Source: an uncultured Bacteroidota bacterium (GTDB lineage Bacteria > Bacteroidota > Bacteroidia > Flavobacteriales > Flavobacteriaceae). From it: DNA of 64,000 nt. Shown in pieces: positions 18,041 through 48,094 of this stretch (within the stretch, counting starts at the first letter, position 1; each line of letters starts with the position of its first letter). A program made the translations under genes and the position numbers. A model generated the notes under the pieces. That model was not told where the DNA came from. It saw nothing but the letters and a program-made list of their open reading frames with translations, and did not search any database. The stretch spans positions 1 to 64,000 of the forward strand of contig CAILWV010000067.1 in the NCBI GenBank assembly GCA_903838055.1, given 5' to 3'.

Positions 18041-18114
18041 GGCGAGGTAGCTCAGTCGGTTAGAGCGCAGGATTCATAACCCTGAGGTCGGGAGTTCAAA
18101 TCTCCCTCTCGCTA
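18041..18114 (+). tRNA. tRNA-Met (anticodon CAU)
   Basis: GGCGAGGTAGCTCAGTCGGTTAGAGCGCAGGATTCATAACCCTGAGGTCGGGAGTTCAAATCTCCCTCTCGCTA folds as a cloverleaf; CCA not encoded; Ile2 (lysidine) not excluded. Confidence 0.92.
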
Positions 18115-18115
18115 C
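18069..18115. repeat. attL core (3' end of tRNA-Met), left boundary of element E1
   Basis: 47-bp AGGATTCATAACCCTGAGGTCGGGAGTTCAAATCTCCCTCTCGCTAC identical to 35721-35767. Confidence 0.9.
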
Positions 18116-21400: not shown

Positions 21401-21903
21401 TTTGCAATTTGTTCCAACAAAAGTTGGTAGGCTTTCTCTTGTTCTTGTTGTTGTTCTTTTATTTGTCTTTGCTTTTCTCCCAATTTTGGAATAAAAGAAT
21501 CGTCAAAAGAACCTGGTAAATCTGGAATTGCTTTACTGTAAGTTTGTGCAAACCATTTAGTGAAATCATATATGTATCGGATGCTGATTAAAGCATCTTT
21601 GGAAGCAACTTTATTTCCAAAATGGACTGAATTGTTTCCTGTTTTTCTAACAATACGAAGACCCTCTCGAAGTTGAAAAGGAATGATGCTTTTAATTTCT
21701 TCATGATCCATCAACTGAACCAAATCGGTATTGAATGGTTTTTCAATGTGCTCTAAATCATAAATCAAGTACATGGATTCTTCCAATACCAAACGGCAGT
21801 AACTGGCGCAAGAAACAGGTTCTGTAAAAACCCTTTCCTCTGCAGTTTTCAGTTTGCTGTAGAGTGACAGCCACTCTTGTTGAAGAAATTTAAAATTGCT
21901 CAT
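18469..21903 (-). CDS. hsdR: Type I restriction-modification system, restriction subunit (DEAD/DEAH helicase, N-terminal DUF4145-like region)
   Basis: VLWDDNGKPLAIIEAKRTTKD nuclease motif, MATGSGKTRTAAALVD, IIDEAHRSIYNRY, GLTATP, QMIGRGTRL. Confidence 0.94.
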   Translation of the reverse strand: MSNFKFLQQEWLSLYSKLKTAEERVFTEPVSCASYCRLVLEESMYLIYDLEHIEKPFNTDLVQLMDHEEIKSIIPFQLREGLRIVRKTGNNSVHFGNKVASKDALISIRYIYDFTKWFAQTYSKAIPDLPGSFDDSFIPKLGEKQRQIKEQQQEQEKAYQLLLEQIAKLQQEKDVILAKAQESETALSEFKQQTQQAVVKLKKQKQERLKPLSSEFSEAQTRQHLIDVDLKEVGWNNLNIGRELEYPVTGMPVTVDNPKGNGFVDYVLWDDNGKPLAIIEAKRTTKDIEVGKHQAFLYANCLEKMHQQRPVIFYTNGYETKIWEDTFYSSPRRVYGFYTKEELRWLIQKRSTIKDIRQATINTAIANRPYQFEAINRVAETFVTDGANGLCGNKRRALLVMATGSGKTRTAAALVDVLFKNNWVKRVLFLADRNALVRQAKNNFSEYLPDLSSINLSEEKENDTTRLVFSTYPSMMNKIDSIRTAEERFYGVGHFDLIIIDEAHRSIYNRYKAIFDYFDASIVGLTATPKDGIDHNTFELFGCGNEDPTFLYELHQAVPQYLNPYKNIDITTNFLRDGIKYKDLTDKEKEKYEETFEDKTTGLFPEEIRANAMNKWLFNKDTVNKVLDNLMHNGLKIEGGDKLGRTIIFAVNQQHAKFIVDCFTERYPHLPSGFISMIHNEVSHAQSLIDAFCDKYKENNPQIAVSVDMMDTGIDAVRVLNLVFFKVVRSYAKFWQMIGRGTRLCEDVFGPGQPKDHFLIFDVCGNFDFFEVQKKGKETFIVKPITQQIFESRLHLSRLLVEEGEEENIELSNTLRDILHKTIKELNRDRFQVAMNLKYVEEFGERSRWNSIDSNDVHIIEEHLSELQVPETVNEMARRFDLMMLKLQIATLMMSGTKKKYEENLIDIAEGLSQKYTIPAVLRAKSMIENIKKQDFYKGISQKKLDSVREELRELIQYLDTRGRAIIYTDLKDSEITMTVSEPMLASNYGTSYRRRVESFIRENKHQLTISKLLSNNPITAKELKLLEEILFDGEERGTREDFEKEFGHEPLGVFIRSIIGLETKAAQDAFSEFLQAGNLRADQMTFIQNIITYLTKNGTIEPSMLFEPPFTDMNDQGLIGTFDDSDAHKVISIIERINENATA

Positions 21904-21982
21904 TAGTATATTTTATTAAAAACCATCATGAAATTATCTGCATTTACCATTGAAAATTGTGTTTCACAAAATGCTTTATCAA

Positions 21983-22016
21983 CATTTCTATCAACATTTC
22001 TATCAACATTTTTTAG
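21983..22016. repeat. 12-bp tandem repeat, ~3 copies, between hsdR and the AlbA-type gene
   Basis: TATCAACATTTC x2 then TATCAACATTTT. Confidence 0.7.
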
Positions 22017-22021
22017 TTATT

Positions 22022-23665
22022 TCATTGATTTATGTTGATAGAGTATAAAGTCCATCTTTTTTCACCTTCTTTAATAAGAAGACTACTATCAATCATTTCA
22101 TCCAGTTTTGCTTTAAGTGTTCTTTGTTTTATTTCTTCACCAATTCTTTTGTTTATGTCACTTATAGCACTTTTTGGATAATTCTTTAAATCTTCATAAA
22201 TAAGTTCTTGCAATCTATGAGGTTCTATTCTTTTTAAATTTGTTTTTTCAATGAAATCACTACTTCTCAAAAATTCAGGATTTACAAAATAGAACGTTCC
22301 TTTTGTTTTTCCTTTTGATTGTACTAACTCCAAATCCAATAATCTCCCTAACCAAGATTGTACGCCATTTGAATTAACAACATTTAATAGATTTGCTAAT
22401 TCAATTGCTGAAATCCCATCATTTTGTGCAATCAAACCTAATGTAATTAATTCTCTTTGTCTAAGTTGCAACTCTTTTGAAGCTTTGTCCATCAATCTTA
22501 AAACTTCATTACTCATGATTCGTTTCTTGATTGTAACAACAACTCTATCATCTCCTTCTAAAACAATTGGAACCTCTTTACCATTACCCAACAATAACTC
22601 ATATACTTTGTCATAACCGCTTCCTTCCTTTTCCATCAATTTTAAATCATAGAAAAGTTTTGCCAACAATGGATTGCGTTGTACCGATTTAGTCAAAATA
22701 TTTTCAGGAGTAACCCCAAGAGGCAATAATCCTGGACTGTGTATTTCAAGTCGATCATTATATAAATTGATAAAAATATCACCACGCATAGAATAATTGC
22801 GATGTGCAAAAGCATTTGCAACCAATTCTCTAATTACTTCGGGAGGATAATTGTAAATATTCTTTCTAAAAATACCATCAGAAACTTCTACAAATTCATT
22901 CCAATCAGGTATTTGAGTCAAAATATCATTGATTAACTCCTTAGGATTTTGGGAAAAATCATCCCAAACTTTTTTAAACACTTTTCGTTCTTCAATATCA
23001 TATTTTATGAACTGAACAGATGGCGGGTAATGAATAACAGCTCTGTCCTTTCTGTTTCCAATCCAGAGAATACCCAAATTAGTAAGCACTCCATTGTTAG
23101 TAAGAAAGTAATGGTCTACAATTTCTTCATCGTGCATGTCTTTTATAAACTGACTTACTCTCTCAGAAGAACGAATATCTTTGAGGAACTGGTTTAATTT
23201 AGTCACATCACAATCTGATAAAGGAATTTTTTTAACTGTTTTATCTTCCCAAACAAATGCATTTTTTTCAGCAAACAAACGTTCAATATCATCCGAAAGT
23301 ATTGGTTTACATTGGTCAGAAACTCGCATATAGTATTTACCATCTGTAGTACAGGCAATGGATTGACTGCTTCTAAAAACGGTTAACTCTATATATTCCC
23401 CACCATTATCTGCGGTAATTATTTTAGGTGCAATACCAACATACAAAGTAAGTGAGGATATTTTCTTCTGAATTGCCTCAATTAAATCTGGATTAATTTT
23501 TTGGGAAGCAACAGGTACATTTTGATCATCTTCAATACCTATTAAAATATTACCTCCTGCACTGTTGGCAAAACAAACGCAGTCTTTCGCAAGTTCTTTC
23601 CAGTCTGCTTTTTTACCATCTATTATTGAAAGTGACTTTTTATCTAAACTACTATTCTCTTTCAT
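22022..23665 (-). CDS. AlbA_2/Schlafen-type ATP-binding (divergent AAA_4) helix-turn-helix protein
   Basis: DWKELAKDCVCFANSAGGNILIGIEDD N-terminus, YPPEVIRELVANAFAHRNYSMRGDIFINLYNDRLEIHSPG central, winged-helix-like C-terminus. Confidence 0.85.
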   Translation of the reverse strand: MKENSSLDKKSLSIIDGKKADWKELAKDCVCFANSAGGNILIGIEDDQNVPVASQKINPDLIEAIQKKISSLTLYVGIAPKIITADNGGEYIELTVFRSSQSIACTTDGKYYMRVSDQCKPILSDDIERLFAEKNAFVWEDKTVKKIPLSDCDVTKLNQFLKDIRSSERVSQFIKDMHDEEIVDHYFLTNNGVLTNLGILWIGNRKDRAVIHYPPSVQFIKYDIEERKVFKKVWDDFSQNPKELINDILTQIPDWNEFVEVSDGIFRKNIYNYPPEVIRELVANAFAHRNYSMRGDIFINLYNDRLEIHSPGLLPLGVTPENILTKSVQRNPLLAKLFYDLKLMEKEGSGYDKVYELLLGNGKEVPIVLEGDDRVVVTIKKRIMSNEVLRLMDKASKELQLRQRELITLGLIAQNDGISAIELANLLNVVNSNGVQSWLGRLLDLELVQSKGKTKGTFYFVNPEFLRSSDFIEKTNLKRIEPHRLQELIYEDLKNYPKSAISDINKRIGEEIKQRTLKAKLDEMIDSSLLIKEGEKRWTLYSININQ

Positions 23666-23675
23666 GATACTTTTT

Positions 23676-24845
23676 TTATAACTCCCCTTTAAACGCCTTT
23701 TGCAACAGACTATTAAACAAACGCTCTGATTGCTCTAAACTCTTTTGTGCAATGGCTTTCTGTTCTTCTATTACTGCCACTCGCTCTGCAAATTCGTTTT
23801 GAAGGTTAATTGAAGGATTTATTACCTCGTAACTCTTTAATAATGCAGAATTCAAATTTGGTTGATTTCCACCTCTTCCTAAACTTCTTAAATCTTCATA
23901 ATTCAATTGTAGTAATTGAAATAGAAAGTTGAAATTCATTTTGTCTGATGGTGGTATTACTCCACAAGCTTGATTTGTAGTGGCATCAATTCCTAACATA
24001 CCTATCTGTCCTCTTGTTTTTCCTTGACCATACATCGCAATTATCAAAGAACCTTTTGGATATAATTTACAACTTGAATTTGTTAATGCTTCTTCAGAAA
24101 TTTTCTCTGATGTATTATAAATCACTTTGCCATTTACTTCACCAGTTTTAACCCAAGGAATTTCACCAACATAATAACTATCATTTTCTCTACTTGGAGT
24201 ACTTCCAGATGAAATTTTACTTATATCTCCCAACATTACTTTCTCCCACCCCTTAGGATTACTCACAGGATCCCCAAACATATCCAAGAACAGTGCTTGT
24301 GTAAGTTCATCATACTTTGCAATCAATGCTTTGTCATTCTGTCTTAATGCATCTGCAGCATCCAGTATGTTGGCAATTTTCTGTTGTTGTGGGAGTGGTG
24401 GTAGAGGGATTTCAAGTTCTCCAAGTTTTTTTCTTGTTATTCTCTCTCTTGTAGTTCCTGTTTTTTGTCTCTCAATAGAATTTCTTATATCTGTAGAATT
24501 CAAACAATATTGTAAATATCTATTATTACAATTTTCATTTGTTCTAATTATGCAAACATCAACCGCAGTAACATATTTTTCATTTTCCTCTAATGGAAAA
24601 ACACACGCTCTTCCTAATGGATCTGGCATTCTTGCAATCAGAATATCACCCTTTTTAAGAAAAGTACATCTTAATCTTTTTGCAGTTTCTCTATTAATAA
24701 ATCTTGATGATTTATCAACAAAAAAACCATCACCAATATCAGCAAGTTGAATAAGTCTTATCTTTCCATTTGGATCTTGATCTTTACTTTCAATCCAATC
24801 CCCATCTGCAAATAAACATCCATCAAGTACATCTTTTAATTTCAT
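23676..24845 (-). CDS. hsdS: Type I restriction-modification system specificity subunit
   Basis: Two TRDs each followed by conserved helices (LGELEIPLPPLPQQQKIANILDAADALR; second half with SGSTPSRENDSYYVGEIPWVKTGEV). Confidence 0.93.
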   Translation of the reverse strand: MKLKDVLDGCLFADGDWIESKDQDPNGKIRLIQLADIGDGFFVDKSSRFINRETAKRLRCTFLKKGDILIARMPDPLGRACVFPLEENEKYVTAVDVCIIRTNENCNNRYLQYCLNSTDIRNSIERQKTGTTRERITRKKLGELEIPLPPLPQQQKIANILDAADALRQNDKALIAKYDELTQALFLDMFGDPVSNPKGWEKVMLGDISKISSGSTPSRENDSYYVGEIPWVKTGEVNGKVIYNTSEKISEEALTNSSCKLYPKGSLIIAMYGQGKTRGQIGMLGIDATTNQACGVIPPSDKMNFNFLFQLLQLNYEDLRSLGRGGNQPNLNSALLKSYEVINPSINLQNEFAERVAVIEEQKAIAQKSLEQSERLFNSLLQKAFKGEL

Positions 24846-26317
24846 TTCAACAACTCTTCTAAGATTAGTAACTTTTGTTTATTCTCTTCTTGAAGATTTT
24901 TAATATCTTGTATAATCACGGATGGTTGTGCATAGGTCACTTCATCATATACTACTTCCTTGTATCTGTTTATAGACAAATCCCAATCGTTGGCTTGTAT
25001 ATCTGCAAATGGTACTAAGAAACTTTTATCTGTACGTTTTCTATCTGCTTCTGCAGTAAGATTGTGGTATCTGGCAACAATGTCTTGTATATCATTGTTC
25101 TTGGTTTCTGATCGTTTTGCATCAAGAGTATAACCATCAGCACCCATGTCATAAAACCATACTTTATCTGTACCACCAGTTCCTGTTTTGGTAAAAAATA
25201 ATACTGCTGTACTTACTCCTGCATAAGGCATAAACACGCCACTTGGCATAGAAATCACTGCATCCAACTTGTGGTTTTCAATAATCTCTTGTCTAATCTG
25301 TTTGTGAGCATTAGAAGCACCAAATAATACTCCATCAGGAACAATTACTGCACATCTTCCACCAGTTTTGAGCATGCGTAACATCAAACCTAAAAACAGC
25401 AATTCGGTTTTCTTTGATTTTACAGTTTTCAATATAGAAGTTTCCACCCCATCATAATCTAAACTTCCTTTGAATGGTGGATTGGCAAGTATCAAGGAAA
25501 ATCGATCCCGCACATCACCATTGCTTTCACTCAATGCATCTTTACCAATCAAGTTTGGACTTTCAATTCCATGCAATTGCAGGTTCATGGCACCAATGCG
25601 CAACATCGTATTGTCAAATTCAATACCTGTGAACATAGAACTGTTGTAGTGTTCTCTGAATGATTTATCATGGAACCAATCCGGGTGATTTTGGTGCAAA
25701 TATTCCCCTGCAGATACTAAGAATCCTGCAGTTCCTGCTGATGGATCACAGATAGTATCTTCTTGTGTTGGCTGCACCATGTCGACCATCATTCTAATGA
25801 TGTGTCTTGGTGTTCTAAACTGTCCGTTAGTTCCTGCGGTTGCAATTTTGGAAAGTAAATATTCATAGACATCGCCTTTGGTATCTCTATCATCCATTTT
25901 GATTTTATCAATCATCTGCACCACTTGGTCCAACAATCTTGGCGTAGGAATCATAAATGTTGCGCCAGTCATGTATTTGGCAAACACACCATTTTCGGCA
26001 CCTACTTGTTTCATGTGTTCAAATACAGATAATCCATCAACCATCGGCTTGGTAAACAAGTCAAACATGATTTGAGGATCTTTATTTTTGAAGGAGTTCC
26101 AACGCAGTTCAGTGGCAGTAGGTGGAAAGATGAAGTTTGAGATTGGCTTCTTTATCAAGGCTGCCTTTTTCTCTTCGAGTAACTGGGCTTCATCCAATCG
26201 TCGGATGAACAATAAATAAGTAAATTGTTCGATCACCGTAAGCGGATTAGAAACACCACCTGTCCAGAAACTCTCCCATATTTTGTCAACTTGTGACTTA
26301 ATTTCTCCTGTAATCAT
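24842..26317 (-). CDS. hsdM: Type I restriction-modification system N6-adenine methyltransferase subunit
   Basis: DPSAGTAGFLVSAGEYL SAM motif and NPPFKGS catalytic motif; start MITGEIKSQVDKIWESFW preferred to ORF start at 26416. Confidence 0.94.
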   Translation of the reverse strand: MITGEIKSQVDKIWESFWTGGVSNPLTVIEQFTYLLFIRRLDEAQLLEEKKAALIKKPISNFIFPPTATELRWNSFKNKDPQIMFDLFTKPMVDGLSVFEHMKQVGAENGVFAKYMTGATFMIPTPRLLDQVVQMIDKIKMDDRDTKGDVYEYLLSKIATAGTNGQFRTPRHIIRMMVDMVQPTQEDTICDPSAGTAGFLVSAGEYLHQNHPDWFHDKSFREHYNSSMFTGIEFDNTMLRIGAMNLQLHGIESPNLIGKDALSESNGDVRDRFSLILANPPFKGSLDYDGVETSILKTVKSKKTELLFLGLMLRMLKTGGRCAVIVPDGVLFGASNAHKQIRQEIIENHKLDAVISMPSGVFMPYAGVSTAVLFFTKTGTGGTDKVWFYDMGADGYTLDAKRSETKNNDIQDIVARYHNLTAEADRKRTDKSFLVPFADIQANDWDLSINRYKEVVYDEVTYAQPSVIIQDIKNLQEENKQKLLILEELLK

Positions 26318-27107
26318 ATATTGTTGTTGTAGAAGTGCAATTGACTGCACCAAAGCGTTTGTATTAATCAGTAAATATAGGAAATTTTGTGAATTATTGA
26401 ACTGAAGAATAAACATGGGTGTTGATGAAAAGTAATAATGTGAATTGATGCATTAGATAGGATGCTGAATTCCTTTAAATGTACCCCCCAAACCCCCCTT
26501 ACTAAATCAAGTCAGTAAGTGATTTGGAGAACCATTTAAAAGAGTAAATTGATGCATTGAGACAATCAGCTTCACTCCCTACATCGGAAAACGCAATCAT
26601 CCAGACATGTAGTAGACTTTTGATTTTAGAACACATTCAGCAGTTCATGTTCGTTAGAGGATTTTGCAGAAATATCTTTCAATTAATGATTCGGAGTAGT
26701 AATTGTTACTCTTCCATACCTCAGGGTGAGTCGTATAACACCCTTCCTCAGGCGCATACATTTGTATTTACAAATTGCATTCCTTTGAGCTCTTCCACTT
26801 GTGACTTTTCAGTCTGCCTCAAGTCCTTTTGATAATGAAAACAATGTTTTCGCATTTATAATTATTAAAGCAAAAATCGTGCCATAAGTTATTGAATTTC
26901 TGACAAATAAGGTCAGATGATAATGCGCCAAAAAGACACAAATTTGACATGAAAACATGACAAAAAAAGCAGTGAAAAATTTATTAAAAATTCAATATGA
27001 TAATTATTGTTTTATGTTTTTCCCCATGAAGAAGCACCCCACCCCCTCACATTTTTCATCAAACATTTCCTCCTGTATTGTAAGGTAAAGAATCACACTA
27101 CATGGCT

Positions 27108-32880: not shown

Positions 32881-33594
32881 TTATTCTCTGAATTTTTGCA
32901 TGGCATCTATCAATCTATTTTTATATTCAACTGCATTTAATTCAGTAAACTTCCAATCAGGCGAAATTACCGTTATTACATCACAATTTTTCTTTTCAAT
33001 TTGATTCAACAACAACTCTTTTTTATGAGAATTAGGTAGTTGATTTAAAATTCGTTTTGCTTCATCAAATTCACCAATATTTCTATATAATTCTGCAAAC
33101 AGAAACATGTCTTTTGAATTGATGTCTGTTAAAAGACCAATCAAAATCTTTGCATTATTGATAAATATGTTCCTGCTTTCTTCTGATATTACTTTTGGTT
33201 CCCAATACAATGGATTTGTAAGAGGGTGTACTCGTAATCGATCATTATATTCTCTCATGATATTTACCCTTATATAAATCAATCTTTCTTTGTTTCGCAA
33301 CTTATTTAAATTATTAAAAAAGTTTTTCTTTGAATATTTATTTTCAAAATATTCGGCTGCTTCAACATAACCACCAAAACCCAATCCACCGTACATTTGC
33401 GATGACCAATAAAATTGATTACAATTTTCACACCATTGTAGTTCTGATTTTTCAAAACTTGGGACTTCTTTAAACTGTTTACCATCCGACCATTCAGTTA
33501 ATCCATATACATTAACAAAACTATCTCCTTGACGCCCTACTTTCAAATGACCAAAGAAAGAACATTTTGTAATTGGTGGTTTTCCTACCTTCAT
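32881..33594 (-). CDS. Hypothetical protein, paralog of downstream ORF (CxxC plus helical repeat-like C-terminus)
   Basis: LTEWSDGKQFKEVPSFEKSELQWCENCNQFYW.. and ELYRNIGEFDEAKRILNQLPNSHKKELLL. Confidence 0.65.
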   Translation of the reverse strand: MKVGKPPITKCSFFGHLKVGRQGDSFVNVYGLTEWSDGKQFKEVPSFEKSELQWCENCNQFYWSSQMYGGLGFGGYVEAAEYFENKYSKKNFFNNLNKLRNKERLIYIRVNIMREYNDRLRVHPLTNPLYWEPKVISEESRNIFINNAKILIGLLTDINSKDMFLFAELYRNIGEFDEAKRILNQLPNSHKKELLLNQIEKKNCDVITVISPDWKFTELNAVEYKNRLIDAMQKFRE

Positions 33595-33602
33595 ACTTTT
33601 TA

Positions 33603-34319
33603 TTAATTTGTTTTTTTTGGGGGAACTGGAACGGTGATCTCATTTATTATAAAAACATCACAATTTTTATTTTCAATTTCTTTCAATAACAATTCCTTTT
33701 TGTTGGAATCGGGTAATTGATTTAGAATTCGACTTGCTTCCTCAAAATCACCAATATTTCGATACAATTCTGCACGCAGAAATAAATCATCCGAATTGAT
33801 TTCATTTAATAATTTAATGAGTTTTTTCGCATTATCTATAAATATTTTCTTTTTCTCAACTGTGTTTGTGTTTTTAGGTAGTTTACCCTTTGAAAGTGGA
33901 TGAATTCGAAATTGATCATTGTAAGTTCTCATAATATTTGTTCTTATATAAATCAAATCTTTCTTGTTTTTCAATTTGTAATCATAATTGTAATAAAAAA
34001 TATTAATAAAACTAAAAAAACTCATCAATGAATATTTTCTTTCAAAATGTTTTAAAGCCTCAACATAAAAATCAAATGAATTTATACCACAATACGAATC
34101 GTACCAATAATATTTTTTACATACTGTACACATCTGCAGTTTTGACAGATCAGTACTTGGTAAAGTTTTAAATATCTTTCCATCAGACCACTCTGTTTTT
34201 TCATATCCAAAAACACTAAATCTTGGAAATTTGTTTTTCCCACCACAAGAAGGACATTCTATAAAATAAGGTTCGAAGTATTGCATAATTGGTGAATTGT
34301 GATTAACAAATTTACACAA
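33603..34319 (-). CDS. Hypothetical zinc-ribbon protein, tandem paralog
   Basis: ECPSCGGKNKFPRF..LQMCTVCKKYYW and ELYRNIGDFEEASRILNQLPDSNKKELLL. Confidence 0.65.
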   Translation of the reverse strand: MCKFVNHNSPIMQYFEPYFIECPSCGGKNKFPRFSVFGYEKTEWSDGKIFKTLPSTDLSKLQMCTVCKKYYWYDSYCGINSFDFYVEALKHFERKYSLMSFFSFINIFYYNYDYKLKNKKDLIYIRTNIMRTYNDQFRIHPLSKGKLPKNTNTVEKKKIFIDNAKKLIKLLNEINSDDLFLRAELYRNIGDFEEASRILNQLPDSNKKELLLKEIENKNCDVFIINEITVPVPPKKTN

Positions 34320-34552: not shown

Positions 34553-35674
34553 TCATAATTCTGGCATATCAGATACTGACAATTGTTTTATTTCCAATCC
34601 TCTCAAATACGTAAGTGTAACCTGCAAGGTACTGTGTCCCATTACCTGCTGCAGTTTTGTTAAGTCGCCTGTTTTCTCATACACCTTAATTGCACCAGTA
34701 TGTCTGAAACTATAAAGTGTATTGTGTTGCTTCAAAATCTTCGAAGTCTTTTTATATCTTGACCAAAGTGTCTTGAAATAATCTTCATTGTACGCATACG
34801 GATTTTTTGAAAAGATGTTGTTTTCATCTTCCCCTCTATTTAGATACTCTCTCACAAAAGCAGGAACCGGAACAATTCTGTTTTTCTTCCCCTTGTTTCT
34901 TGAACCTGACAAACTGATATAACTCATATCATCTGCAAAATCTCCCCATTTCAAATTACGTATTTCAACATGCGGTCGCAATAAACAACCATAAGTAATC
35001 AAACAGCACACATGTAAATCTATATTGTATTGTGAAATTTCCTCTAATGTAGATTTCACATCCTTGATTGGTTTGTGAAGGACTTCTTCTTTCTTCTTAA
35101 GTTTGATTGATTTGAAAGGATTCGGAAGCTTATAGGCTTCAAACATTTCACCAAGTAACGCAGAGTAAACAATCTTGAAATTGAATTGTACTCTTGAAGA
35201 ATCACTTGTGAATCGCAACAATTCTCTTGCTTTGGAAATATCAAATTCAGAAAATTTAAGATTTCTGTATTGTTGGATCTTGACAAAGTTGTCAATACAG
35301 CTTGCCGCCTTTTTTAAATCGCGTACATAATAAGAACTGTACTTTACTGTCAGCTTTTGTTTCAATGCTTGTTGTCCAGCATGCTCAAGTAATATGTTTT
35401 CAATTTTTACTTCAACATCATTTTTGATTGCATCGGTTGGTCTCCAACCTTTCTCCAACATGCTTTGAAATGCAATTAACATTTCATTCAATTTGATTTG
35501 TTTTTCTGGATCCTCACATTGATTTGGTTGCAGATCAAGATTCAAAATTTTTGCGTTGTAATACCTGTATCTTTTTCCATTGAAAAAGAATGAAATTCCC
35601 ACTCTGGAATCGGCTTGAAGAAAGGATTTTAATCGTTTGAATTCGTAGTTCATTGTGACACTTTTGTGACACAA
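34553..35674 (-). CDS. Tyrosine recombinase / site-specific integrase
   Basis: LLRPHVEIRNLKWGD (R), YSFRHTGAIKVYEKTGDLTKLQQVMGHSTLQVTLTYLRG (HxxR..H..Y). Confidence 0.93.
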   Translation of the reverse strand: MCHKSVTMNYEFKRLKSFLQADSRVGISFFFNGKRYRYYNAKILNLDLQPNQCEDPEKQIKLNEMLIAFQSMLEKGWRPTDAIKNDVEVKIENILLEHAGQQALKQKLTVKYSSYYVRDLKKAASCIDNFVKIQQYRNLKFSEFDISKARELLRFTSDSSRVQFNFKIVYSALLGEMFEAYKLPNPFKSIKLKKKEEVLHKPIKDVKSTLEEISQYNIDLHVCCLITYGCLLRPHVEIRNLKWGDFADDMSYISLSGSRNKGKKNRIVPVPAFVREYLNRGEDENNIFSKNPYAYNEDYFKTLWSRYKKTSKILKQHNTLYSFRHTGAIKVYEKTGDLTKLQQVMGHSTLQVTLTYLRGLEIKQLSVSDMPEL

Positions 35675-35720: not shown

Positions 35721-35767
35721 AGGATTCATAACCCTGAGGTCGGGAGTTCAAATCTCCCTCTCGCTAC
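35721..35767. repeat. att copy 2 (E1/E2 junction)
   Basis: 47 bp identical to 18069-18115. Confidence 0.9.
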
Positions 35768-35772
35768 TCTAT

Positions 35773-35806
35773 AACCCCTTAATATTTAGGTATTAAGGGG
35801 TTTTTT
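35773..35806 (+). terminator. att-proximal terminator, copy 1
   Basis: ACCCCTTAATAtttaggTATTAAGGGGTTTTTT. Confidence 0.85.
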
Positions 35807-35838
35807 AATTGTGTTTGAATTAAAGAGTATGAATTTGC

Positions 35839-35917
35839 TCAAGTGAGGAACTGGAGATCTATAGACATGCCAAGCCTTACTACCACTCCAAAAATATAGG
35901 ATTTTTTAAGTGAGGAA
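35839..35917. repeat. Two copies of TcAAGTGAGGAA motif (E2 left end)
   Basis: TCAAGTGAGGAA 35839-35850; TAAGTGAGGAA 35907-35917. Confidence 0.7.
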
Positions 35918-35925
35918 GTTTAATG

Positions 35926-36177
35926 TTAATAAAAATAGCTTATTCCAAATAAAGCCATGAATTTAGTTCCTGGTGTGAAGCATATTTCGGTAACAGGTAC
36001 CTTTCCAATTTTCAATTCTCTTGATGCTTGTAAACGTAAATTTCCATCAATAACCACATTGGTTTTTGATATTACAATTGGTTTAATTATGCCATATACC
36101 GATACTTCTGTTAACATACAGGAATACCCCCAATTAGAAAATTCCGGGACTTCATTATATATTGGATTGTATTTCAA
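35926..36177 (-). pseudogene. ParB-like nuclease domain fragment, apparently truncated
   Basis: SVYGIIKPIVISKTNVVIDGNLRLQASRELKIGKVPVTEI then an abrupt unrelated tail near the element end. Confidence 0.55.
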
Positions 36178-36319
36178 ATCCTTAGAGTCAAACCAAATAA
36201 TATATTTTTCATTATAATACTTTTATTATTTTTCTACAATCACATTTAAAATTTTGGTTTATTGACCGTTACATTATTTCCACCAATATTGGAATTTTAC
36301 AAATTCTAAATACAAAGAA

Positions 36320-36583
36320 ATGAATATTAAAGAAAAATTAGGATTGCGGATTTTGGAATTAAGAAAAGAAAAATCTTTATCATAAGAAAAGCTTGCATTG
36401 AAATCTAATACAGATAGAGCTTATATGCATTTACACTCTCTAAAATCGCAATTGATGAACGTACAGTTTTCAAAATCTTTAAACTTGGTAATGGTATCAT
36501 CAAAGACTTGGTCTTTAAGCTCTTGGTCAAAGATATATCTGAGTGCATGGTTTAAGAGCGTAAAACTAATTAAAAAGAGTTAA
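36320..36583 (+). pseudogene. Degenerate XRE-family HTH regulator
   Basis: MNIKEKLGLRILELRKEKSLS*EKLALKSNTDRAYMH then frameshifted ..IDERTVFKIFKLGNGIIKDL; premature TAA at a position usually CAA (Gln). Confidence 0.65.
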
Positions 36584-36612
36584 GAGTTAATTTTAAAAGA
36601 TTCCTTAGCTTC

Positions 36613-37602
36613 CTATAAATCAAATTTATAATACAATCCAAATTCAACAAATAAGTTCTGTTTTAAATTGCGTTCCGATTCGGTAGTAGAATTTTTAGTA
36701 ACAACATTTTCAATACCGCTTGCTAATTTAGTAGTGGTTACTGTTGTTGTATAAATTGTGTTTTTAGGAATGGCATAAGTTGGAGTTAAAAAAAACACAA
36801 ACTGTTTGGTTTGATAACTCATCAGGACCGAAAACTCATAATCTAATAGAGTAAACCGATTGTCATCTACTGTTGTAATAGCATTTACATTTGCTATATT
36901 AGGATTGTTGTGTAAAATTTTCTTCCCAATTTTTTTATTCAAGTACCCCTCATAATAATTTAAAGTACTAAAGTTTACGTCAAATGTTGGTGTTATTTTA
37001 AACTCATCTTTTCCATTTTTTAAACTGAATTCACGTTCCAATTCAATATCCAATGCAAAATCTGTTTTTTGGGAAAATAAAAGATCTCCTTCGATAAATA
37101 ATTCTATAAATCCGAAATCATAATCAGTATTTGCACCTATATTTCCTTTAATATTTGAACTTAAAGTATTAGTTGACTTATTGTAAAAAGTTCTACTGGC
37201 TACTAATCCACTTGAAAAATTATCAGTAAATTCATGATTGTAATTCAAATCTAACGAAAAGAAATCGAAACGATGTTCATTGGCTTGGTTTAAATAATAC
37301 CCTGAAAAACTCACATCAAATCCTTTTTTATTAAAATAACCAACGGATGGCGTAATATAAGGAGTCGCTATAGAATCATTTCTTCCATTATACACATAAT
37401 TGGATAAATAACTAGCAGAGAATTTAAAGTACGATTTTTTAGTTATACTGTCTTTAATTTCGTTTTTAAGGGAATCTTTTACAACATCATTCTTAATTTG
37501 AGCAGTTAGGTTAAAATTTAGAAATGATAGGAATAGAATTAACTTTAATAGTTTTTTTGAATTTGAAATTTTCATAGTTTTTTGATTTTCTTTATTTTTC
37601 AC
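36613..37602 (-). CDS. Outer-membrane beta-barrel protein, overlapping the NRPS gene
   Basis: Signal peptide (LILFLSFLNFNLTAQ), alternating beta-strands, C-terminal FVEFGLYYKFDL; 11-bp overlap with the NRPS ORF. Confidence 0.65.
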   Translation of the reverse strand: MKNKENQKTMKISNSKKLLKLILFLSFLNFNLTAQIKNDVVKDSLKNEIKDSITKKSYFKFSASYLSNYVYNGRNDSIATPYITPSVGYFNKKGFDVSFSGYYLNQANEHRFDFFSLDLNYNHEFTDNFSSGLVASRTFYNKSTNTLSSNIKGNIGANTDYDFGFIELFIEGDLLFSQKTDFALDIELEREFSLKNGKDEFKITPTFDVNFSTLNYYEGYLNKKIGKKILHNNPNIANVNAITTVDDNRFTLLDYEFSVLMSYQTKQFVFFLTPTYAIPKNTIYTTTVTTTKLASGIENVVTKNSTTESERNLKQNLFVEFGLYYKFDL

Positions 37603-40600
37603 TTATTGGGCTTCCTGTCCAATCAGTATTATTTTGAAGGACTTCTCCTTTCATTACTAGTGATAAGTCACCAATAGTGATATCATTTTTTATTTCAGTA
37701 TTGTATAGAATAATTGTTCGGCTACCTATAGTTACTCTATCACCGATTTTTACTTTTCCAATTTTCATTACTCTATCTTCAAATAGATGGGTTTGAGCAC
37801 CACAATCTTCATTCAAAGCACAATCATCTCCAATAGAAACCATATCGTATTCGGTAAAATCAGCAGTGTTTAAGAAAACCCTTTTGCCAATTGAAACACC
37901 AAACAATTGCAATAGAATAGGTAACCAAGGCGTTCCTTTTAAATATTCTAATATAAAGGGTACACTTAATGCTTCATAAGTAGCCGTTATCATTTCACTT
38001 TTCCATACTTGAAAACTCCACATTGGATGATTACTTTCTTTGTATTTTCCTATCAAAATCCATTTCATAAGTATGGGTAATGCCATTACAGGAATTCCAA
38101 TAAAGAACAAATAGTAAAAAGGTAATTGTAATAAAATTTTACCTATTGACTCATTATACATCAATTCACTTGAATAGGCAATGAAATAAATACTACTAAT
38201 CAATATTACTGTTTGAGGAAGAATGATTCTGATGGATTCAATGATTGCTCTCGATAGAAACATTTTTCTTGAAGGGGAAAAGGTTTTTGAAGCATCAAAA
38301 AGTTGACTATCTTGCCTTTTTGGAATGCCAATGGCAGGCGACCCAAACCAATCATTGAAAGCTTCTTTGTTCAATTGTTCTTTAGTAGGAGGAACACTTA
38401 AAACACCAATGAGCATGTTACTTGATAATTCATATCCTTGCGGAATTAAGGCACTATTGCCCACAAAACTATTATCGCCAATGGTCGTTTTTTCTAAAAT
38501 TAAGCGTTGTCCTCTTACGTCATATTCTCCTAAAGTTACCGCATCTGCAATAAATGATTTATTGCCAATTTCGAGCAAAGGATGAGTTACATTACTAGCT
38601 GTTGATATTTCAGTATTAGCTCCAATTTTCGCGCCGAGTGCTCTAAAATATTTTGAAATAAAAACAGTAGCATACATCGGATGTAATACAATTAATGTAA
38701 GTGAATTTAATTGTTCAACAAACCATTTTTTTACATAAAATTTGCTATAAACAGGATATACGCCTGGTTTAACATCTTTTTGAAGCATTCTGCATAAAAG
38801 AATATTCAACGAAGCAAACATTAAAATGTAAACAGCACTTAAAAAAGGAGTTACCCATAAATAATAAAACTCAAATTCACCAGCTGCATTATCTAATTCG
38901 GTTATTGCAATAATGGTTGGAATTAAAGGAATTAATATAAAAATAGGGAACAGCAGTAATATCAATGAATATATAAACCTGTGATAAAAGAGTTTTCTCT
39001 TGGTGATTGTTAAAGGTTCTAATAAGTCTTTTTCATTTCGGGTTTCCACTAATTTAGAAGGGCTGCCTTTCCAAATTTCGGCATGACCAATAGTATTTCC
39101 ATATTCTAAAAGACTTAAATCTTGCAATTCGCCCCAATCTTCAATAACAGTATTTCCCTCTAAAACAGCACTACTTCCAATGTAAGCATGATTTCCAATA
39201 GTAATTTTGGATAAAATAAAATAGCCGTTTTCGATGACTGCATTATCCAAAACAACATTAGAACTTATGCTAACATCTTTCTTTATAGTTACTAAATCTT
39301 CTGCTCCGATAGTCATGTTACTCAGTTGCGCATCATTTTCAACTTTTACCCCCATTAATCGCATGTATATAGGATACAATGGAGTTCCATTAAGAAATTG
39401 GGTTGGTATAATCTTTTGAAAAGTAGTCACAAACCACCATCTAAAATAATAACTACCCCAAAGCGGATACTTTCCTTCTTTATATTTTCCAATAACTATC
39501 CATTTAATAGCAATTCCCAATCCAATAAACATAGGAGGAATAATTGAAAACATTATAAAAGCCACAATTGCGGCAATTAAATGGCTTTCTTTTTCTAATA
39601 AAGTAAAGTAATAAGCCAAATAAGGAATAAAGATTTCGGACGCTAAAAATCCGAAAATAAGTACTAAGGAAAAGGTTTGAGCCAACCAACAACAGTAGTA
39701 GTTCCAATTAGAAACTTTAATAAATTCTTTTTTGTTTTTAGCTTCTTTTTTGACTTCAGCTTCCCATTTTTGTACTAATGCCGAAAGTGGTCTTGATTGA
39801 TAAATATCTTTTAAAGAGGCATGTGTTACTTTTCCTTCGTCACGCATTTTACTAACAAATGAAGCAGCTAAAAGTGAATGCCCACCAAGATCCGTAAAGA
39901 AGTCGTTTTCTATATTGATGTCTTCTTTTATAAAAATGTTTTTTAAAACTTTAATTGTTTTGGTTTTGATAGAATCCGATTCAGATATATTATTTTCAGT
40001 GGAGGTATTGGCAAAATAATTACTTGGTATGGGCAATTGCTTTCGGTCAATTTTACCACTCGATAGTCGGGGCAATTCGTCCAATTTAACGATTGTTAAC
40101 GGAACCATATACGAAGGTAACTTCAACGCCAATTGTTCTTTGATAATAGCTTCGTTAAAAACAAAATCTTTACTAATCACTACATATCCGGTTAATTGCT
40201 CTTGATCATTGGTGTCTTTTTTTAGAGCAACTGCCGCTTGAAGAATTCCAATTTGGTCATTCAATATACTTTCAATTTCGCCTAGTTCAATTCGGAATCC
40301 TCTAAGTTTAACCTGACTATCGATACGTCCTATGAAATGAATGTTTTGATCACTATCCATATAGGTAGCATCACCAGTTCTATAAATCATAACTCCCGGC
40401 AATTCTTGTAAAGCATCATTTTTAGGAAGAAACTTCTCTTTAGTTAAATCTTCTAAATTCAAATAACCATTACTTACTCCAATTCCAGACACAATTAATT
40501 CACCCGATTCCCCAATAGCAACTGGATGCATGTTTTCATCTACTACTGCCAATCCATAATTTGGAAGCGGTTTTCCAATAGTGATAGGGTCGCCTTTTTT

Positions 40601-41530
40601 TAATTTGGCAAAAGTGGCACTTACAGTAGTTTCAGTAGGACCATACGAATTATAAAAGTCACGTCCTTCCTTGGCCCATTTGTTTAAAACTTGTGGCGTG
40701 CAAGCTTCACCACCGGCATTGATGATTCGTAACTTAGGCAAATCAATTGATTCCATCACAGCCAATAAACTCGGTACAGCATGAAATACTGTGATTTCAT
40801 TTTCTAATAAAATAGTACTTAATTCGTCAATGGACTTTGAAGTAACACTATCTGCAATCCATAGGGTAGCGCCTACTAAATAACTTACCCAAGTTTCTTC
40901 ACACCACATATCAAAAGAAACTGAAAAACCTTGATACACCTTATCATTTTCATTTACATTAAGAAGTGAATTTTCGGAACGAACTAAATGACATATATTT
41001 CTGTTGGTAATTGGAATTCCCTTTGGTTTTCCTGTGCTTCCAGAGGTAAATAGTACATAAGCATAGGTGTCTGGGTCTAATATTACTGTTTCTAAAACAT
41101 TATGCGTACCTTCTTCAAAAATTATTTCATTGATAACTGTGCAAGAATGATTGAATGTTCGCGACGTAATGATGAAATTAGATTGAATGTCTTCTAGAAC
41201 TGATACCACTCGCTCTTCAGGAATGTCGTAATCTAATGGAACATAAGTGCCACCACATTTTAGAATTGCTAAAATAGCTACGTGAAGTTCAATGCCTCGT
41301 TCCCACCAAACTAGGCAAGGACTTCCTTTTTTTAACCCTTTAGCTTGCAATATACAGGCTAAATTAGTTGACCATTCGTCTAAAATTTTATAACTAATTT
41401 GTTTGCCGTTAAAATAAAGCGCCGTTTTAGTAGGACGTTTTTCAACGTTCCTTTTAAATAAATTAACTAAAGTTTCTTCTTTTAAAAAATCTTTACGCTC
41501 GTCGCCAATGATCAAACTTAATTCTTTCAT
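37592..41530 (-). CDS. Single-module NRPS, A-T plus three tandem TM/hexapeptide-like C-terminal units (Pls/epsilon-poly-lysine-synthetase-like architecture)
   Basis: A domain: YVLFTSGSTGKPKG, NSYGPTETTV, YRTGD, VKLRGFRIELGEIE, LSSGKIDRKQL; T domain FFTDLGGHSLLAASF; then three units each with a TM pair and LbetaH-like hexapeptide repeats. Confidence 0.88.
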   Translation of the reverse strand: MKELSLIIGDERKDFLKEETLVNLFKRNVEKRPTKTALYFNGKQISYKILDEWSTNLACILQAKGLKKGSPCLVWWERGIELHVAILAILKCGGTYVPLDYDIPEERVVSVLEDIQSNFIITSRTFNHSCTVINEIIFEEGTHNVLETVILDPDTYAYVLFTSGSTGKPKGIPITNRNICHLVRSENSLLNVNENDKVYQGFSVSFDMWCEETWVSYLVGATLWIADSVTSKSIDELSTILLENEITVFHAVPSLLAVMESIDLPKLRIINAGGEACTPQVLNKWAKEGRDFYNSYGPTETTVSATFAKLKKGDPITIGKPLPNYGLAVVDENMHPVAIGESGELIVSGIGVSNGYLNLEDLTKEKFLPKNDALQELPGVMIYRTGDATYMDSDQNIHFIGRIDSQVKLRGFRIELGEIESILNDQIGILQAAVALKKDTNDQEQLTGYVVISKDFVFNEAIIKEQLALKLPSYMVPLTIVKLDELPRLSSGKIDRKQLPIPSNYFANTSTENNISESDSIKTKTIKVLKNIFIKEDINIENDFFTDLGGHSLLAASFVSKMRDEGKVTHASLKDIYQSRPLSALVQKWEAEVKKEAKNKKEFIKVSNWNYYCCWLAQTFSLVLIFGFLASEIFIPYLAYYFTLLEKESHLIAAIVAFIMFSIIPPMFIGLGIAIKWIVIGKYKEGKYPLWGSYYFRWWFVTTFQKIIPTQFLNGTPLYPIYMRLMGVKVENDAQLSNMTIGAEDLVTIKKDVSISSNVVLDNAVIENGYFILSKITIGNHAYIGSSAVLEGNTVIEDWGELQDLSLLEYGNTIGHAEIWKGSPSKLVETRNEKDLLEPLTITKRKLFYHRFIYSLILLLFPIFILIPLIPTIIAITELDNAAGEFEFYYLWVTPFLSAVYILMFASLNILLCRMLQKDVKPGVYPVYSKFYVKKWFVEQLNSLTLIVLHPMYATVFISKYFRALGAKIGANTEISTASNVTHPLLEIGNKSFIADAVTLGEYDVRGQRLILEKTTIGDNSFVGNSALIPQGYELSSNMLIGVLSVPPTKEQLNKEAFNDWFGSPAIGIPKRQDSQLFDASKTFSPSRKMFLSRAIIESIRIILPQTVILISSIYFIAYSSELMYNESIGKILLQLPFYYLFFIGIPVMALPILMKWILIGKYKESNHPMWSFQVWKSEMITATYEALSVPFILEYLKGTPWLPILLQLFGVSIGKRVFLNTADFTEYDMVSIGDDCALNEDCGAQTHLFEDRVMKIGKVKIGDRVTIGSRTIILYNTEIKNDITIGDLSLVMKGEVLQNNTDWTGSPISEK

Positions 41531-41562
41531 AAATATGTTTAAGTCTTTTAGACTTTATTTAA

Positions 41563-41594
41563 TTGATAGAGTTTAATTGTAATTTCTATATTTG
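41563..41594 (+). promoter_or_regulatory. Bacteroidota-type promoter for the PPTase gene
   Basis: TTG-N21-TATATTTG, 19 nt before the TTG start. Confidence 0.5.
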
Positions 41595-41613
41595 TTTTAA
41601 AAATTGATAAGTA

Positions 41614-42225
41614 TTGGAAATTTATAAAAACTGTTCTAATGTTCTAATGAGTAACGAAGAAATTAACACAAAATTATCGTTACTTCCTGATTACTTGCAA
41701 AATAAAATATCGAACTATGTTAGTACTGAAAAAAAACAACAGCGAATAGAAGGTATAGAACTCTTATCTATTGCTTTAAAAAAGAATCAAATGGATGAAA
41801 AAGAAATTCATTCTATTTATTACAATGATTTTGGAAAACCTTTTATTAGTAATGATTTTGATTTTAGTATTTCCTATTCGAAAACTACGACCGTTTTAGG
41901 TTTTATTAAAAATGGATTAGTAGGAGTAGATGTAGAAGAAATTAAACCTATTGATTGTTTGGTGTATAAAGAGTATTTCACTTCAAAAGAATGGTTATTT
42001 CTGACTCAAAGTTCGTTTAGTACTACTACTTTTTTTCAGCTTTGGACTCGTAAAGAAGCAGTTGCTAAAGCGATTGGTAAAGGTACTTTTTTAGATTTCA
42101 ACTTAATAGAAGTTTTAGAAGATAAAATCATTCTTGAAAACAAATTGTTATACGTGTCTACCAAATTTTTAGAAAACAATTGTTTGTCTATTGCTAGTAG
42201 CGATGAGGTAATTTTAATTGTATAA
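41614..42225 (+). CDS. 4'-phosphopantetheinyl transferase, Sfp type
   Basis: GLVGVDVEEIKPID and WTRKEAVAKAIGKG motifs; divergent from the NRPS. Confidence 0.88.
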   Translation: MEIYKNCSNVLMSNEEINTKLSLLPDYLQNKISNYVSTEKKQQRIEGIELLSIALKKNQMDEKEIHSIYYNDFGKPFISNDFDFSISYSKTTTVLGFIKNGLVGVDVEEIKPIDCLVYKEYFTSKEWLFLTQSSFSTTTFFQLWTRKEAVAKAIGKGTFLDFNLIEVLEDKIILENKLLYVSTKFLENNCLSIASSDEVILIV

Positions 42226-42667
42226 AAATCAACACTAGCTCAGCAAAAAAATCCTTTGAAAAATTCCGTAAATGCCATTAGGTTTTGCGTAATTTTATTA
42301 ATACATACCATATGCTTTACTAACAAATGTTGATAAATTTCAATTATTTAATTCCAAATTAGCAGGTCTTTTTTTTATTGAAAGTAATACATTTGGTAAC
42401 CAAGAAATAATATTTCAGTAAGAACCTCAAAAGAAAATTACGAAAAAGCCTATAGGCATAAAATAATTCCGGAGGATGATAGATAATTTTTATATTACCA
42501 GTTGACTTTTCAAAATCTTTTATCTATTAATTAAAAAAGAGATAGATTTATTATGCAAACAAAAGAATGGTATAATAAAAAAGAGAATTAAGAATATTGA
42601 TTCCTTTAAAACAAAATTCACTACTTCCAAAACAAGTTCCCAAACCAGATTAATTCATCATTCTGTA

Positions 42668-43105
42668 ATGGATGAATTATTCCGTAAAAGAAGACGATTA
42701 AGTAAAAGAGAAATCAATCTTACAATAAAATGGGTTAGAAATCATTATTGGAACTTCATCGGAAACATTGTTCCAGAAAGCACAACCATTGAAGAACTGA
42801 AAGGCAAGATGAGGTTCTTATTTGAACAACTTAAAACGCTACAAATGGAGAACAATCAATTAACCCTCTATTACTCCATCGAAAAAAATCCAAATGACAA
42901 TTACTTCCATTCTCATTTTTTAATTGACTGTGCAAAGGATATGATTGAACTCACTGACATTAATGATAAACTGACAATCATTTGTGAGCCAAACACAATA
43001 AGTGAATCAAGAATTTATCTTGAAGAATATGATATTAAATCTTATAAGGCCGGAGCAATATATTCCTCGAAGGAGCAGAATTTTTTTTATGAAGTTTTGG
43101 GTTAA
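42668..43105 (+). CDS. Hypothetical protein with HUH-endonuclease-like motif
   Basis: YYSIEKNPNDNYFHSHFLIDC (hydrophobic-HUH-hydrophobic) and a C-terminal Tyr/Lys-rich YDIKSYKAGAIYSSK segment. Confidence 0.4.
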   Translation: MDELFRKRRRLSKREINLTIKWVRNHYWNFIGNIVPESTTIEELKGKMRFLFEQLKTLQMENNQLTLYYSIEKNPNDNYFHSHFLIDCAKDMIELTDINDKLTIICEPNTISESRIYLEEYDIKSYKAGAIYSSKEQNFFYEVLG

Positions 43106-43200
43106 AATAGAAAGCGTTTGACTTATCAATTTTATTCCCCTATCCTTTCAAAATCGGTAGGAATAATAACGAGTTTAGAAACTTACACAACATAAATTAC

Positions 43201-43226
43201 GGAGTAAGGAAATGGAGTAAGGAAAT
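43201..43226. repeat. Tandem 13-bp direct repeat at E2 right end
   Basis: GGAGTAAGGAAAT GGAGTAAGGAAAT. Confidence 0.8.
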
Positions 43227-43292
43227 AGTTGAAATTCGTCTAAAAACTAGTAAAACCCTTTAAAATCAGTAGGTTTTGTAATCAAATTTTTT

Positions 43293-43335
43293 TTCATAAC
43301 CCTGAGGTCGAGAGTTCAAATCTCTCTCTCGCTAC
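43293..43335. repeat. att copy 3 (E2/E3 junction), two substitutions versus the tRNA
   Basis: TTCATAACCCTGAGGTCGaGAGTTCAAATCTCtCTCTCGCTAC. Confidence 0.88.
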
Positions 43336-48051: not shown

Positions 48052-48094
48052 TTCATAACCCTGAGGTCGGGAGTTCAAATCTCCCTCTCGCTAC
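48052..48094. repeat. att copy 4 (distal boundary of the array)
   Basis: 43 bp identical to the tRNA 3' end. Confidence 0.9.

Follow-up and report, generated by a model that had tools for sequence, protein, structure and literature searches.

A Pls/PosA-family peptide synthetase, predicted to make delta-poly-L-ornithine, on a small tRNA-Met insertion in an uncultured Flavobacterium

The synthetase and its locus

We have analyzed a stretch of 64,000 nucleotides (the window, positions 1-64,000) of contig CAILWV010000067.1 (GCA_903838055.1), from an uncultured Bacteroidota bacterium of the genus Flavobacterium. Our subject is a group of three genes at 36613-42225, encoding an outer-membrane beta-barrel protein, a non-ribosomal peptide synthetase (NRPS) and a 4'-phosphopantetheinyl transferase (PPTase). 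The original prediction described this range as an epsilon-poly-lysine-synthetase-like cassette on a mobile island. A check of the open reading frames (ORFs) returns the same coordinates for the three genes; the range itself is too short, as the insertion that carries them reaches beyond it, to about 35768-43335. The features are collected in Table 1.

The NRPS is 1312 amino acids (aa) long. In a motif scan, the adenylation (A) domain has all of the A3, A5, A7, A8, and A10 motifs, there is a single thiolation (T) motif (LGGHSL, residue 548), and neither the HHxxxDG motif of a condensation (C) domain nor the GxSxG of a thioesterase is found in the sequence. Pfam reports AMP-binding, AMP-binding_C, PP-binding and generic hexapeptide repeats. 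A hydropathy scan identifies exactly six transmembrane (TM) segments in three pairs (613-631/651-669, 856-874/895-913, 1100-1118/1132-1150), and an AlphaFold2 (AF2) model of the C-terminal domain (pLDDT 84.1, pTM 0.86), which uses an alignment of 22 Bacteroidota sequences as input, presents three TM pairs and three left-handed beta-helix (LbH) units, with hexapeptide/LbH coils after every pair. The layout proposed before, that is, complete A-domain motifs and one T domain without HHxxxDG or thioesterase, followed by three units that each open with a TM pair and continue with hexapeptide-like repeats, is thus borne out.

The NCBIfam model TIGR02353 (Pls/PosA family non-ribosomal peptide synthetase) matches residues 617-1309 of the NRPS with 617.7 bits (curated cut-off 423.1), and the match spans model positions 2-695 of 695. 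The assignment to a Pls-type family, for which this search had been suggested, therefore holds across the entire C-terminal domain. The other hallmarks of the family are also found: a single A and a single T domain with no canonical C domain or thioesterase, six TM helices that form three pairs, along with three tandem units, and Asp and Glu at positions 1 and 3 of the substrate code (D207 and E211). The NRPS is confirmed as a full-length member of the Pls/PosA family. And because TIGR02353 covers these 693 C-terminal residues above its cut-off, it is not the case that the C-terminal units match only generic LbH acyltransferases, the outcome that the original prediction had named as speaking against it.

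Table 1. Features of the NRPS cassette and of the tRNA-Met array in the window
Feature	Coordinates	Strand	Basis
Pls/PosA-family NRPS, A-T-(TM pair + LbH)x3, predicted delta-poly-L-ornithine synthetase	37592..41530	-	TIGR02353, substrate code, AF2
Sfp-type 4'-phosphopantetheinyl transferase	41614..42225	+	Pfam ACPS, motifs, same arrangement in 20 other loci
Outer-membrane beta-barrel protein, likely start ATG 37575, not GTG 37602	36613..37575	-	AF2, Foldseek, homologue alignment
Intact tRNA-Met (CAT), presumed integration site	18041..18115	+	ARAGORN; conserved context in 10/10 genus relatives
Left boundary of NRPS insertion, 47-nt copy of tRNA-Met 3' part	35721..35767	+	41-nt pattern (from 35727)
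Right boundary of NRPS insertion, second copy, 2 mismatches	43295..43335	+	resembles left copy over about 190 nt
Third partial copy, distal end of tandem array	48054..48094	+	41-nt repeat search
Tyrosine recombinase of neighbouring type I restriction-modification insertion	34553..35674	-	Pfam Phage_integrase 2.3e-13; PHROG integrase
145-aa ORF inside NRPS insertion	42668..43105	+	no Pfam family; weak PHROG match of unknown function, E 0.013

Two known systems are useful for comparison. PosA of Acinetobacter baumannii (PMC10522769; homologue in CP040041.1, locus L122 in our numbering of relatives, which runs L007 etc.) has the same A-T-(TM pair + LbH)x3 layout as the window NRPS, and also a Gram-negative host. 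Its C-terminal domain has also been modelled as three left-handed beta-helices (PMC10522769), the same build as in our AF2 model. PosA is reported as a single-gene operon, whereas the window NRPS is flanked by the PPTase and barrel genes on a tRNA-Met insertion. Pls, the epsilon-poly-L-lysine synthetase of Streptomyces albulus, shares both family and domain architecture with the window NRPS; its A domain is more distant, the entry 7wew (named epsilon-poly-L-lysine synthase) scoring about 242 bits vs. about 335 for 8g95/8g97.

Substrate code, predicted product and proposed mechanism

The A-domain code of the window NRPS is DMEHNGSVSK, and that of PosA is DMEHNGTVSK. They agree at 9 of 10 positions, and the change at position 7 (Thr to Ser) retains the hydroxyl. 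We evaluated the codes in a family alignment of 97 rows, 90 of them from Bacteroidota (four of which repeat genomes already represented). DMEHNG[ST]V[ST]K is kept in 89 of the 90 Bacteroidota rows, and the code read from the aligned A. baumannii homologue is identical to that published for PosA. When the A-domain core is compared to the PDB using phmmer, 8g95/8g97 come first (320 bits; next entry 304), and we take them to be PosA because their chain carries the published PosA code.

The roles of these positions are known from PosA, in which Asp217 and Glu221 are essential, Met218 limits chain length and selects ornithine over lysine (M218A raises lysine use about tenfold), and losing the Thr304 hydroxyl costs 33-fold (PMC10522769). 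Since that hydroxyl matters in PosA and Ser keeps it, Ser at position 7 should be tolerated. The lysine enzymes (Pls) have Ala at code position 2, the chain-length position (PMC10522769), whereas the window NRPS has Met208. A Streptomyces enzyme that sits beside diaminobutyrate-transaminase and aspartate-kinase genes has Phe at code position 2, as expected for the DAB/DAP type. Read in this way, the code predicts L-ornithine as the substrate, and hence delta-poly-L-ornithine, a short cationic isopeptide homopolymer of an antimicrobial type, as the likely product. The epsilon-poly-lysine proposed earlier is rejected, as the code has Met and not Ala at position 2, and the substrate reading changes to L-ornithine. 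As a side note on codes elsewhere in the family, the Azospirillum and Rhizobium enzymes (L124, L125) have DLEDIGSVVK and DLEDIGTVVK; the DLEDIGTV type that these match is among the unique signature sequences in PMC10522769.

In 91 aligned sequences, Actinobacteria included, the densest invariant stretch of the C-terminal domain lies around QTHLFEDR in the third unit, where the invariant His is H1248. Foldseek with the C-terminal model returns only partial matches to LbH acyltransferases, LpxD included; LpxD and maltose O-acetyltransferase share the fold of the C-terminal units, with weak sequence similarity. LbH acyltransferases such as LpxD are separate soluble enzymes without TM pairs, and the N-acyltransferases among them acylate an amine at the expense of a carrier-protein thioester, a His serving as the base.

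With these elements we can propose a mechanism. The A domain would adenylate L-ornithine, and the single T domain would take it up on its phosphopantetheine arm, which the divergent PPTase can install. The C-terminal domain would then repeatedly couple the side-chain amine of an ornithine with the carboxyl of the one before it, with the three TM-anchored LbH units acting as an acyltransferase trimer in one chain that has a single working site around H1248. The polymer would then be released across the membranes, to the possible benefit of the host.

Partner genes, relatives and the tRNA-Met insertion

The PPTase of the cassette has a Pfam ACPS match (9e-15) and the motifs GVDVE and WTRKEAVAKAIG. 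Its gene and that of the NRPS are transcribed divergently and stand 83 nt apart, and the same divergent arrangement is present in 20 other loci, many of them from Mucilaginibacter. In L129, L131, L132, Sphingomonas, and Rhizobium, a PPTase gene is found downstream, in either orientation relative to the NRPS. The proposal that its own PPTase makes the cassette self-sufficient stands as far as the enzyme is a real and recurrent partner, but the term is only partly meaningful in a genome that has a second PPTase (208 aa) elsewhere. Because of this other enzyme, the cassette PPTase is more probably a matched partner of the NRPS than a strict necessity.

Neither Pfam nor NCBIfam has a family that matches the barrel protein. 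In the alignment, homologous barrels start at the position of ATG 37575, which leaves a gap of about 16 nt to the NRPS; the overlap between the two genes described in the original prediction exists only if GTG 37602 is the start, which the homologues do not support. The AF2 model is weak (pLDDT 58), with about 14 beta strands after a signal-like segment, and the 50 best Foldseek matches are nearly all outer-membrane barrels. Because the model is poor and those barrels have varied functions, no function can be read from them.

In the window, L007, L008, L009, and L010, the barrel gene comes directly after the NRPS and shares its strand. It is not beside the NRPS in L011, of the same clade, nor in nearly all other relatives. 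A barrel profile search finds only 7 loci, the window included, and in L050 and L057 the copies are about 4 kb upstream, behind other genes. Of 299 Bacteroidota genomes, 18 have the barrel family, and just two of these have the NRPS as well: the window's own, and G463, in which the barrel is far from the NRPS. On these counts we reject the barrel as a conserved partner of the family. Its proposed role in export or immunity is not supported, given that the link to the NRPS is confined to this Flavobacterium clade and that the family occurs mostly without it. At most, one can speak of a lineage-specific recruitment. In A. baumannii, the gene downstream of the homologue (L122:7433-8518) was considered as a barrel partner and rejected: it has long hydrophobic stretches, is not barrel-like, and finds no match in Pfam. 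In other Flavobacterium (L090, L091), relatives of the barrel have a TolC-like gene on one side and, on the other, a gene whose product is a small exported protein made of two similar halves.

The best 80 loci of one scan of GTDB genomes, in which the query was itself a Bacteroidota sequence, are all from Bacteroidota. The Pls/PosA family is common in Chitinophaga, Mucilaginibacter, and Pedobacter, whose genes (L013 to L086) have 53-57% identity to the window NRPS and the same code type. Many Mucilaginibacter and related loci have a divergent PPTase, as the window does; unlike the window, L013 to L086 have no adjacent barrel, and Chitinophaga has a GNAT gene downstream instead. Beyond the phylum, tblastn of plasmid records finds members in Acinetobacter, Sphingomonas, Azospirillum, Rhizobium, Rhodococcus, and Streptomyces, at about 30-38% identity. 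The NRPS is found in 2 of 200 sampled genomes of the window's genus and in 5 of 299 genomes across the phylum, both counts including the window's own. In the tree, the window NRPS clusters with six other Flavobacterium-type loci with full support, and its identity to relatives is even across the A, T, and C-terminal parts. L129, from another genome of the same genus, has an NRPS about 50% identical on a long branch outside the window clade; its position is not secure, and it fits separate acquisitions.

A Gram-negative host, as had been proposed, is nothing new for the family, since Acinetobacter PosA is characterised and some Bacteroidota genera are rich in the family. Our literature search for a characterised Bacteroidota member of the family found none in the collection of papers that it covered, and the main text of the PosA paper (PMC10522769) does not mention Bacteroidetes, Chitinophaga or Flavobacterium.

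A GNAT N-acetyltransferase gene lies directly downstream of the Pls/PosA gene in L013, L014, L016, L034, and ten more loci, mainly Chitinophaga, as well as in L131, and these mainly Chitinophaga GNATs are 42-50% identical to the one in L131. It could acetylate the polymer or protect the producer. A single GNAT family across phyla is rejected, as the Sphingomonas GNAT has no significant BLAST similarity to the Chitinophaga type.

As for the insertion, the only tRNA that ARAGORN finds in the window is the tRNA-Met. A 41-nt pattern from its 3' end has four copies in the whole assembly, all on the same strand: in the tRNA itself (18041-18115), and at 35727, 43295, and 48054. Shuffles of the window produce zero chance copies. 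The last three copies share a terminator-like sequence downstream. Because the tRNA-Met 3' copies recur at these three positions, 18116-48094 apparently consists of three insertions lying in tandem at tRNA-Met, with partial tRNA copies between them. The first carries a type I restriction-modification system and ends on the right with a tyrosine recombinase, about 47 nt short of the left boundary of the NRPS insertion. The second (35768-43335) is the NRPS insertion itself, and the third has a UDG-like gene along with an EamA transporter.

Direct repeats of the tRNA 3' end are thus present at both boundaries, and the mobile island of the original prediction is supported and now delimited. A cassette on such a small tRNA-Met insertion is expected to be able to move or be lost. 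Between 35768 and 43335 no integrase is recognised, the sole recognised one of the array belonging to the neighbouring insertion, and therefore the NRPS insertion, if it moves, probably uses a recombinase in trans.

In comparison with genus relatives, the left flank and the tRNA-Met are conserved in 10 of 10, and the tested island genes are not nearby. The right-flank gene does not adjoin tRNA-Met there, and a clean empty site is not seen in the ten. The trio of NRPS, barrel and PPTase is found in other surroundings in L008 and L010 (beside the nuo operon in L010), and L011 has the NRPS and PPTase near IS21-type genes. We did not find the tRNA-Met repeat in the contigs of L007 to L011 and G063, some of which are short, and these copies appear to sit elsewhere than tRNA-Met. 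There is also no copy of the repeat in loci L013 to L086.

Alternative readings, significance and neighbouring genes

Taking all together, we consider it probable that the window encodes an inner-membrane Pls/PosA-family NRPS, most likely making delta-poly-L-ornithine, on a small tRNA-Met insertion. Several observations weigh against this: the code departs from that of PosA at position 7; the identity to the A. baumannii homologue is only 38% full-length and 36% in the C-terminal domain, so that polymer type and length could differ; and the only matches of the C-terminal units in the PDB and Pfam are generic LbH proteins, with nothing nearer by sequence when the PDB was searched for a closer solved relative of the domain. 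One alternative is a different or mixed homopolymer, either epsilon-poly-L-lysine or a polymer of a related diamino acid. PosA binds L-lysine and D-ornithine in crystals, and a single change, M218A, raises its lysine use (PMC10522769). But the window NRPS has the Met, and not the Ala of the lysine type or the Phe of the DAP/DAB type, at the chain-length position, and the near-complete conservation of the code among the Bacteroidota rows also speaks for ornithine, which makes another homopolymer unlikely. It would be highly improbable, in our judgment, that there is no polymer at all and that the C-terminal domain passes the diamino acid to another acceptor, such as a lipid, a cell-surface glycan or a protein. 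The nearest folds are LbH acyltransferases, including LpxD, an enzyme that acylates an amine with a group taken from a carrier protein, and the QTHLFEDR signature with H1248 recurs in the third unit of the aligned sequences, Actinobacteria included, all of which could suit such a transfer; characterised members with the same domain, however, make homopolymers (PosA, PMC10522769; others cited there).

Two further alternatives concern the locus. That it is a decaying, non-functional remnant on a defective insertion could be argued from the lack of a recognised integrase and from the few recognisable genes around the trio, but the NRPS, barrel and PPTase are all intact with their motifs kept, and the even identity to relatives extends over all parts of the NRPS, so we find decay very unlikely. 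More room should be given to the idea that the barrel is a dedicated partner, either letting the polycation out through the outer membrane or guarding the producer against it, since it is directly downstream on the same strand in the window and in the four related loci L007 to L010, at least two of which have different surroundings. We still regard this as doubtful: the barrel is missing beside the NRPS in almost every other relative, including L011 from the window's clade, just two of the genomes with the barrel family also have the NRPS, and in other Flavobacterium its neighbour is a TolC-like gene.

The kind of enzyme predicted here, a delta-poly-L-ornithine synthetase, is already known, and the interest is in an apparently uncharacterised Bacteroidota clade. 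Cationic homopolymers of the epsilon-poly-lysine type serve as food preservatives. Delta-poly-ornithine is an antifungal, and we find no export route described for the Acinetobacter PosA product (PMC10522769). The compact Flavobacterium cassette, with linked PPTase and barrel, is a concrete system in which to ask if Bacteroidota make ornithine polymers, and a tractable case for how these exit a cell with two membranes. As a broader possibility, to which we give rather low credence, Bacteroidota may hold a large uncharacterised clade of delta-poly-L-ornithine synthetases, which in Flavobacterium would be a transferable cassette with a barrel recruited to pass the polycation or to shield the outer membrane. 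If true, barrel recruitment would answer how a membrane-damaging polymer can get out of a Gram-negative cell.

Some neighbouring genes deserve mention. The type I operon (HsdR, HsdS, HsdM) of the first insertion spans 18469-26416, and between HsdR and HsdS there is an extra gene (22022-23665) that by eye resembles an AlbA/ATP-binding-type protein. At 32881-34319, two adjacent related genes of 237 and 238 aa, of no clear family, are a duplication, their DNA repeats being 74-76% identical. Inside the NRPS insertion, the 145-aa ORF has FHSHF and YSSK stretches that by visual inspection recall HUH-type Rep motifs, with no family match.

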